DNA of 64,000 bases from Bacteroidales bacterium (GTDB lineage Bacteria; Bacteroidota; Bacteroidia; Bacteroidales; JAIOZK01): contig JAIOZK010000010.1 in NCBI GenBank assembly GCA_021740625.1, positions 1-64,000 of the forward strand, written 5' to 3'. The position numbers were made by a program, and so were the translations under genes. Below the pieces are notes generated by a model. It made no database searches. It had not been told where the DNA came from and saw only the letters and a program-made list of their open reading frames with translations. Of the stretch, positions 8,828 through 9,239 are shown one piece after another. Position 1 is the first letter of the stretch. Every line of letters begins with the position of its first letter.

Positions 8828-9239
8828 GTTTGTAAATTTTTGGTTTGTTAATAATTTTTTTGTTTTCAGGCTTGTGTTCAAAAAAATAAGCTGGCCGGAC
8901 TTATGTGCTTTGAAAACAGGGCGGATTAGGGACGTTTATGCCGTAAACCTCCTTTCTTTAAATAGTGAGTTAAAAAGATCTGAATTTCTAGAAATAGAAT
9001 CAGGAAATTCTTGAAAAGGATATTTAAATGAAATGGATTGGTTATTAGCTCCCTCTCTCTCTCTCTCTCTCTCTCTCTCTCTCTCTCTCTCTACAAGGGT
9101 ATTGGTTAGATCAATTATCATTTGCTGGGTTGATTTGGCTAGTTGCTTGTATCTGTTAATTCTGTGAATGGAAAAAAGGTAACCCGAAATCCGAGTGAAT
9201 TGTTTATAATCAGAAAATATAAAATATAGCCTGAGCTTA
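8828..9239. other. Intergenic region with microsatellite and palindrome
   Basis: This 412-nt gap between the beta-lactamase stop and the small secreted gene holds the (CT)20 tract and a perfect 12-bp palindrome ATTTCTAGAAAT at 8984-8995. It should contain the promoter of the small secreted gene on the minus strand, but no exact TAnnTTTG is visible; the nearest is a stretched form just before an A-rich leader. An open frame crosses the tract (8936-9247, TTG start) but has no family resemblance. Confidence 0.6.
9053..9092. repeat. (CT)20 dinucleotide microsatellite
   Basis: Twenty uninterrupted CT units (GA on the minus strand) occupy 40 bp. Tracts of this length and purity are rare in bacteria and mutate quickly by slipped-strand mispairing. 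It lies about 225 nt upstream of the small secreted Cys-rich gene and about 150 nt downstream of the beta-lactamase stop, so length changes would alter promoter or leader spacing, or shift an open frame that crosses it. Confidence 0.97.

Follow-up and report, generated by a model that had tools for sequence, protein, structure and literature searches.

A dinucleotide repeat in a leader open reading frame as a candidate phase-variation switch for secreted-protein genes in Bacteroidales

What does a long, perfect dinucleotide repeat do in the leader of a secreted-protein gene? The question is raised by positions 9053-9092 of a 64,000-nucleotide stretch of Bacteroidales DNA (hereafter, the window). 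Phase variation by repeat slippage is classical in Neisseria, Haemophilus, and Helicobacter, and Bacteroides is known for DNA inversion. The host is an uncultured Bacteroidales MAG of 4.02 Mb in 52 contigs, 95% complete, whose FtsZ is at most 63% identical to that of named records. As a preliminary description had stated, the tract is a pure (CT)20, with 20 perfect CT units (40 bases) inside the 412-nt gap between 8827 and 9240. Tandem Repeats Finder gives it a score of 81, the highest of the 31 arrays in the window, and its length is far beyond chance, with n = 20 representing the assembly consensus of a MAG. Because the neighboring genes (8390-8827, 4879-8334, and 9240-10055) all lie on the minus strand, the repeat reads as (AG)20 in the transcript of the downstream gene, where it starts 265 nt and ends 225 nt ahead of the ATG at 8827.

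The gene upstream of the tract (9240-10055, minus strand) encodes a class D (OXA-type) beta-lactamase, scoring 273 bits against the NCBIfam class D model (cut-off 250). Downstream of the candidate switch is the gene for a 145-aa Cys-containing protein with a signal peptide (MKKIISILVIVMATVLTLANGAYAQ; 8390..8827, minus strand), for which no Pfam or NCBIfam family was matched. Its one paralogue in the host genome shares 30% identity and is found at the very start of contig C27 (L022:149-499). Neither the beta-lactamase nor the Cys-rich gene was found in the one same-genus genome, which leaves no orthologous locus for comparison. The next gene (4879..8334, minus strand) encodes a 1151-aa secreted protein with PKD and T9SS type B sorting domains (CHU_C, Bac_Flav_CTERM; Pfam 1e-18, TIGR04131 3.3e-16). 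Between these two genes lies a 15-bp terminator-like palindrome, AAATATGTCCCGGAAGAGTTTCCGGGACATATTT, at 8347-8380. The preliminary description considered both genes as candidates for control by the repeat. For the giant T9SS protein this is doubtful, as the intervening hairpin parts it from the Cys-rich gene and it may thus escape the switch; co-expression of 4879-8334 with 8390-8827 is uncertain.

In the sense direction, (AG)n is stop-free in all three frames and reads as Arg-Glu repeats. A minus-strand open frame at 8936-9247 does span the tract, as previously described, but its sole ATG lies at 9121, so the likely ORF is only 8936..9121 (61 aa with 20 units, MIIDLTNTLV(ER)n...FKERRFTA*). 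Translating this leader ORF with n = 19, 20, and 21 gives three different stop positions on the minus strand: 9045..9047, or 217 nt before the ATG, if n mod 3 = 1 (e.g., 19 units); 8936-8938, or 108 nt before ATG 8827, if n mod 3 = 2 (n = 20); and 8926..8928, or 98 nt before the same ATG, if n mod 3 = 0 (e.g., 21 units). Because the leader ORF ends before 8827 in every phase, direct frameshifting of the surface protein by an in-gene repeat of the opa/oipA type is rejected. The frame shift that the preliminary description had suggested is therefore retained for a short leader ORF, not for the surface protein's own frame, and any effect on the gene would likely be indirect, through the position of the leader stop. 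A P63C Pfam match obtained for a 103-aa frame was below the cut-off and was treated as low-complexity chance.

From this anatomy, we consider it reasonably probable that the leader ORF undergoes phase variation, with the tract at 9053-9092 as its hypermutable segment, and that the position of its stop decides expression of the downstream secreted-protein gene. A promoter upstream of the tract would yield a transcript whose first ORF, starting at 9121, enters (AG)n. Each AG unit gained or lost would shift leader translation into another frame and hence to another stop codon, and the site at which the leader ribosome stops would determine whether the downstream gene is expressed.

The tract has counterparts in the host and its genus. 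The host MAG contains six (AG)n/(CT)n tracts of at least 16 bp (20, 17, 11, 10, 9, and 8 units) and the same-genus genome (G001) contains three; such tracts are absent from most of 60 relatives. All nine of these cassettes carry AG on the sense strand, 115-225 nt before a secreted-protein gene (9/9), with flanks that are conserved among copies and repeat numbers that are not alike. The (CT)20 tract in its secreted-protein leader has one hallmark of a simple-sequence contingency locus, a perfect short repeat of a length prone to slip in the regulatory or 5' coding region of a surface gene. One paralogous leader in the host genome holds a compound (AG)11(TG)18 tract (L025:5645-5702), and AG-TG compound tracts are also present in L040 and L122.

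A MAFFT alignment of the nine cassettes (six host, three G001) revealed a GGTTAC[CT]TTTT box and GAAT[TA]AA in common upstream of the tract. For the window, we infer promoter function for a -7 box resembling TAnnTTTG (GGGTTACCTTTT; 9174..9185, minus strand), which is common to all nine in this alignment. The best TTTG/TAnnTTTG score upstream of the tract belongs to an alternative predicted -7 box just past the stop of the upstream gene (TATATTTT; 9221..9228, minus strand). Across the tracts surveyed below, matches to the Bacteroidota promoter model (TTTG, 18-21 nt, TAnnTTTG) are enriched on the sense strand 60-140 nt upstream, at positions that are near-constant among paralogues (-120 in G133, -84 in G145, and -88 in G156). 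With boxes at this distance, the tract is probably transcribed. The same placement argues against the suggestion in the preliminary description that the repeat tunes promoter spacing. In such a switch, of the Haemophilus influenzae hif or Neisseria porA type, the repeat lies between the -33/-35 and -7/-10 elements and its length sets promoter strength. Positions -9 to -2 before the tract do weakly resemble TAnnTTTG, but the well-scoring boxes are those just described, 60-140 nt ahead of the tracts, and tract lengths of 16-80 bp exceed that of a spacer. We regard this alternative as very improbable.

To a reader who suspects a chance expansion, the distribution of the tracts is informative. At least one tract of at least 9 AG units is present in 52 of 393 Bacteroidales genomes, spanning 38 of 206 genera, while a stricter threshold (at least 11 units preceded by T) returned 3 of ~390 genomes outside the order. 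For the survey set of 101 tracts from 44 genomes, we defined the next gene as one of at least 180 aa within 700 nt of the tract. This gene lies in the AG sense for 83 of 89 tracts, at a typical distance of 100-500 nt. Of the 83 downstream proteins, 67 pass a signal-peptide rule passed by 46% of other ORFs in the same loci; the rule is simple and lax, and the excess over these control ORFs is still clear. Pfam matches among 61 downstream proteins include T9SS tails, beta-helix, TonB plug, carboxypeptidase-regulatory, subtilase, and C25 peptidase domains. Many tracts (L238, L239, L243, L246, L247, L249) lie 30-300 nt from the ends of MAG contigs, a pattern that would arise had the assembly broken at repeated cassettes or length variants.

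A leader ORF is a recurrent part of this arrangement. An ATG-led ORF of at least 8 codons reaches the tract in the frame GTA-GAG-AGA at 59 of 90 loci, compared with 11.8 in shuffles, and in the two other frames at 19 (11.8 expected) and 9 (3.4 expected); paralogous loci were counted here though they are not independent, such that these and the other enrichment figures overstate the evidence. The same ORF ends recur before the repeat (SETLDYV, QTRMVV, VTETRIYV, SDNLEVNRIVL). Pairwise codon-position tests on paralogous leader ORFs gave no general protein-level constraint, with a hint in G133 and G001 only. The leader ORF thus seems to be maintained as an open frame and not as a particular sequence. 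A neutral microsatellite, a repeat that slips in a relaxed leader region and regulates nothing, would suit the window leader, whose features are all those of the shared cassette. We nonetheless judge this reading improbable, as the repeat recurs in 52 of 393 Bacteroidales genomes at a single type of site, with upstream motif, orientation, and gene class conserved.

If the tract is a switch, its repeat number should be mutable. Among same-genome cassette pairs with similar flanks on both sides, n differs in 6 of 6. Five pairs with both flanks at least 86% identical have n = 17/18, 11/22, 13/17, 9/12, and 11/14, and the pair L246/L247 has n = 12/16 with flanks 93% and 82% identical. The contigs of the G052 pair (n = 11 and 22) were considered as population variants and set aside, as their flanks are 94-98% identical and they are possibly paralogues. 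These differences are indirect evidence that repeat number changes quickly. The idea of a slippage switch beside surface genes, put forward in the preliminary description, is well supported by this comparative anatomy, in which like-placed tracts occur in dozens of genomes and duplicates differ in n.

A second repeat unit occupies the same position. Tracts of (AC)n were found in 19 of 393 Bacteroidales genomes, and among the 37 AC tracts surveyed, every one of the 28 with a gene downstream precedes it in the same orientation. Both units follow a common upstream motif, seen in CCGCAAACCCGCGTGGCTGT(AC)n of G013 and GCCGCAAACCCGCATGGTTGT(AG)n of G192, and their leader peptides are alike (PENLEIRELLL(TH)n for AC, SDNLEVNRIVL(ER)n for AG). 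AC leaders are fully open in one frame at 11 of 15 loci, compared with 3.6 expected. AG and AC are both two bases long and stop-free in all frames; purine richness is not common to both. Their interchange favors a frame switch over RNA effects specific to AG. This bears on the proposal that the leader instead acts as a rheostat, in which AG provides purine-rich, unstructured RNA (a ribosome standby site, an mRNA stabilizer, or an R-loop former) and length, not frame, tunes expression. Such a role would suit a tract that is always in the leader on the sense strand, leader codons that lack clear constraint, and a window copy that lacks a terminator. It would not account for AC tracts, which are not purine-rich, holding the same place behind the same upstream motif, and it does not lead one to expect start codons, open frames, or a pattern in which one frame passes a terminator. 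We therefore consider a length-based rheostat unlikely.

That last pattern recalls a characterized switch. In the pil1 locus of Streptococcus gallolyticus, GCAGA repeats in a leader peptide place its stop relative to a terminator and thereby switch pilus transcription, as was shown by mutation and flow cytometry (PMC3894217). In the Bacteroidales leaders, 36 intrinsic terminators were detected versus 6.2 in shuffles, chiefly in G133, G336, G031, and G020. Where the terminator reaches -9 kcal/mol or lower (23 AG loci), exactly one frame passes the first terminator at 17 of 23 loci (5.2 expected), and no frame passes it at 2 of 23 (13.9 expected). At AC loci with a terminator, one frame passes in 7 of 9 (3.7 expected). 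The pil1 hallmark of a terminator passed by one frame only is thus present in relatives, at 17/23 AG and 7/9 AC loci. At the assembled repeat number, the leader ORF stops short of the terminator at 22 of the 23 terminator-bearing loci. For several relatives, transcription attenuation would be the simplest mechanism, with one frame carrying the ribosome across the terminator, and attenuation like that of pil1 is the best-supported reading of the terminator-bearing Bacteroidales loci.

Other leaders end differently. Among leaders of at least 200 nt, one frame meets no stop until the last 45 nt before the gene start at 20 of 57 loci (1.3 expected). Pro-Pro-stop endings number 19, compared with 2.9 expected, and never occur on the other strand; for 18 of the 19, the frame can be followed back to the tract without a stop, and most of these endings lie 51-78 nt from the gene. 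These leaders vary at synonymous third bases, as in CCGGTTAAGGATGTGCCACCGTAG of G049 and CCGGTGAAGGATGTGCCGCCATGA of G250. In such relatives, the ON frame would end in Pro-Pro-stop approximately 60 nt before the gene. In the leaders of L108, L113, L099, and L037, frames end in Val/Phe-Pro-Pro-stop ~60 or 135 nt before the gene, again with synonymous variation, and these frames possibly encode ribosome-stalling peptides. Downstream open frames built of 7-residue (21-nt) repeats, such as FLIHQGTFMIHQGT, were seen in the leaders of L079, L096, L077, and L288.

How would the stop position be read in the window? The copy shares with pil1 an upstream promoter-like box and a repeat-bearing leader ORF (8936-9121), and the case for its membership in the leader-ORF family is good. 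The leader RNA between tract and gene start (8828..9052, minus strand) has no strong fold, convincing terminator, or Pro-Pro-stop. Specifically, no terminator of -7 kcal/mol or lower was found between repeat and gene, just a -2.2 kcal/mol hairpin before U7, such that the intrinsic terminator of a pil1-type switch is missing from this copy; a recognizable leader terminator was likewise not found in its genus. A Pro-Pro-stop ending was sought in the window leader and none was found, and its open frames do not exceed the lengths expected by chance (p 0.23). A conserved fold is rejected, as the leader RNA folds no better than shuffles (z 0.71 and -1.09). With neither terminator nor Pro-Pro-stop at hand, we infer the readout of the stop position in the window, for which Rho-dependent polarity is one possibility.

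Taken across the order, the data allow a broader reading that we hold tentatively, as plausible but short of probable: the order would possess a contingency system with multiple loci and no need of DNA inversion, where a stop-free tract of AG or AC, the two units being interchangeable, sets the frame of a leader ORF and the readout is lineage-specific (antitermination, delivery of the ribosome to the gene start by an open frame, or stalling at Pro-Pro-stop). Most copies would be OFF, to judge from the 22/23 terminator-bearing loci.

Several known systems offer points of comparison. In the oipA, babB, and sabA genes of Helicobacter pylori, a CT repeat lies within the signal-peptide codons of the outer-membrane gene itself. 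The Bacteroidales tracts resemble these in the CT/AG dinucleotide, the surface proteins, and the proposed frame-based switching, but belong to a leader ORF of its own upstream of the gene. The AGAT repeats of Moraxella catarrhalis uspA2, located in the 5' UTR, act through mRNA level according to repeat number. The repeat is likewise in the leader of a surface-protein gene, whereas the Bacteroidales repeat is within a leader ORF; we know of no leader ORF described for the uspA2 repeats. To our knowledge, slippage combined with leader-peptide attenuation is known only from S. gallolyticus, not from Bacteroidota. The pil1/pil3 loci share with ours a promoter, a short leader ORF with a non-triplet repeat, and a downstream gene for a surface structure. 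In both, repeat number alters the frame and the leader stop, and in G133, G336, G031, and the AC relatives, a terminator is crossed by one frame, with the other two stopping short of it. The Bacteroidales loci differ in their AG or AC dinucleotides, their number per genome, their phylum, and, in some lineages, their Pro-Pro-stop endings; moreover, the window copy lacks a terminator, and switching, experimentally proven for pil1, is predicted for the Bacteroidales loci. Within the same order, the invertible promoters of Bacteroides capsule and SusC/SusD genes provide phase variation of surface genes by recombinase-mediated DNA inversion, and a 2025 review of phase variation names only inversion-type systems for Bacteroides (PMC11868660). 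The loci described here would also vary surface genes, but by repeat slippage rather than by a recombinase. We found no description of the AG/AC leader-tract family in the open-access literature. Slippage switches and leader-peptide attenuation switches are each already known.

If this reading is correct, Bacteroidales would harbor a family of contingency loci built on a leader-peptide attenuation switch that has been proven just for the pili of a single streptococcus. The genes under its control would be those for secreted T9SS proteins, TonB-dependent receptors, peptidases, and adhesin-like proteins. ON and OFF states would be readable from n mod 3 in long-read data, making predictions at the population level testable.
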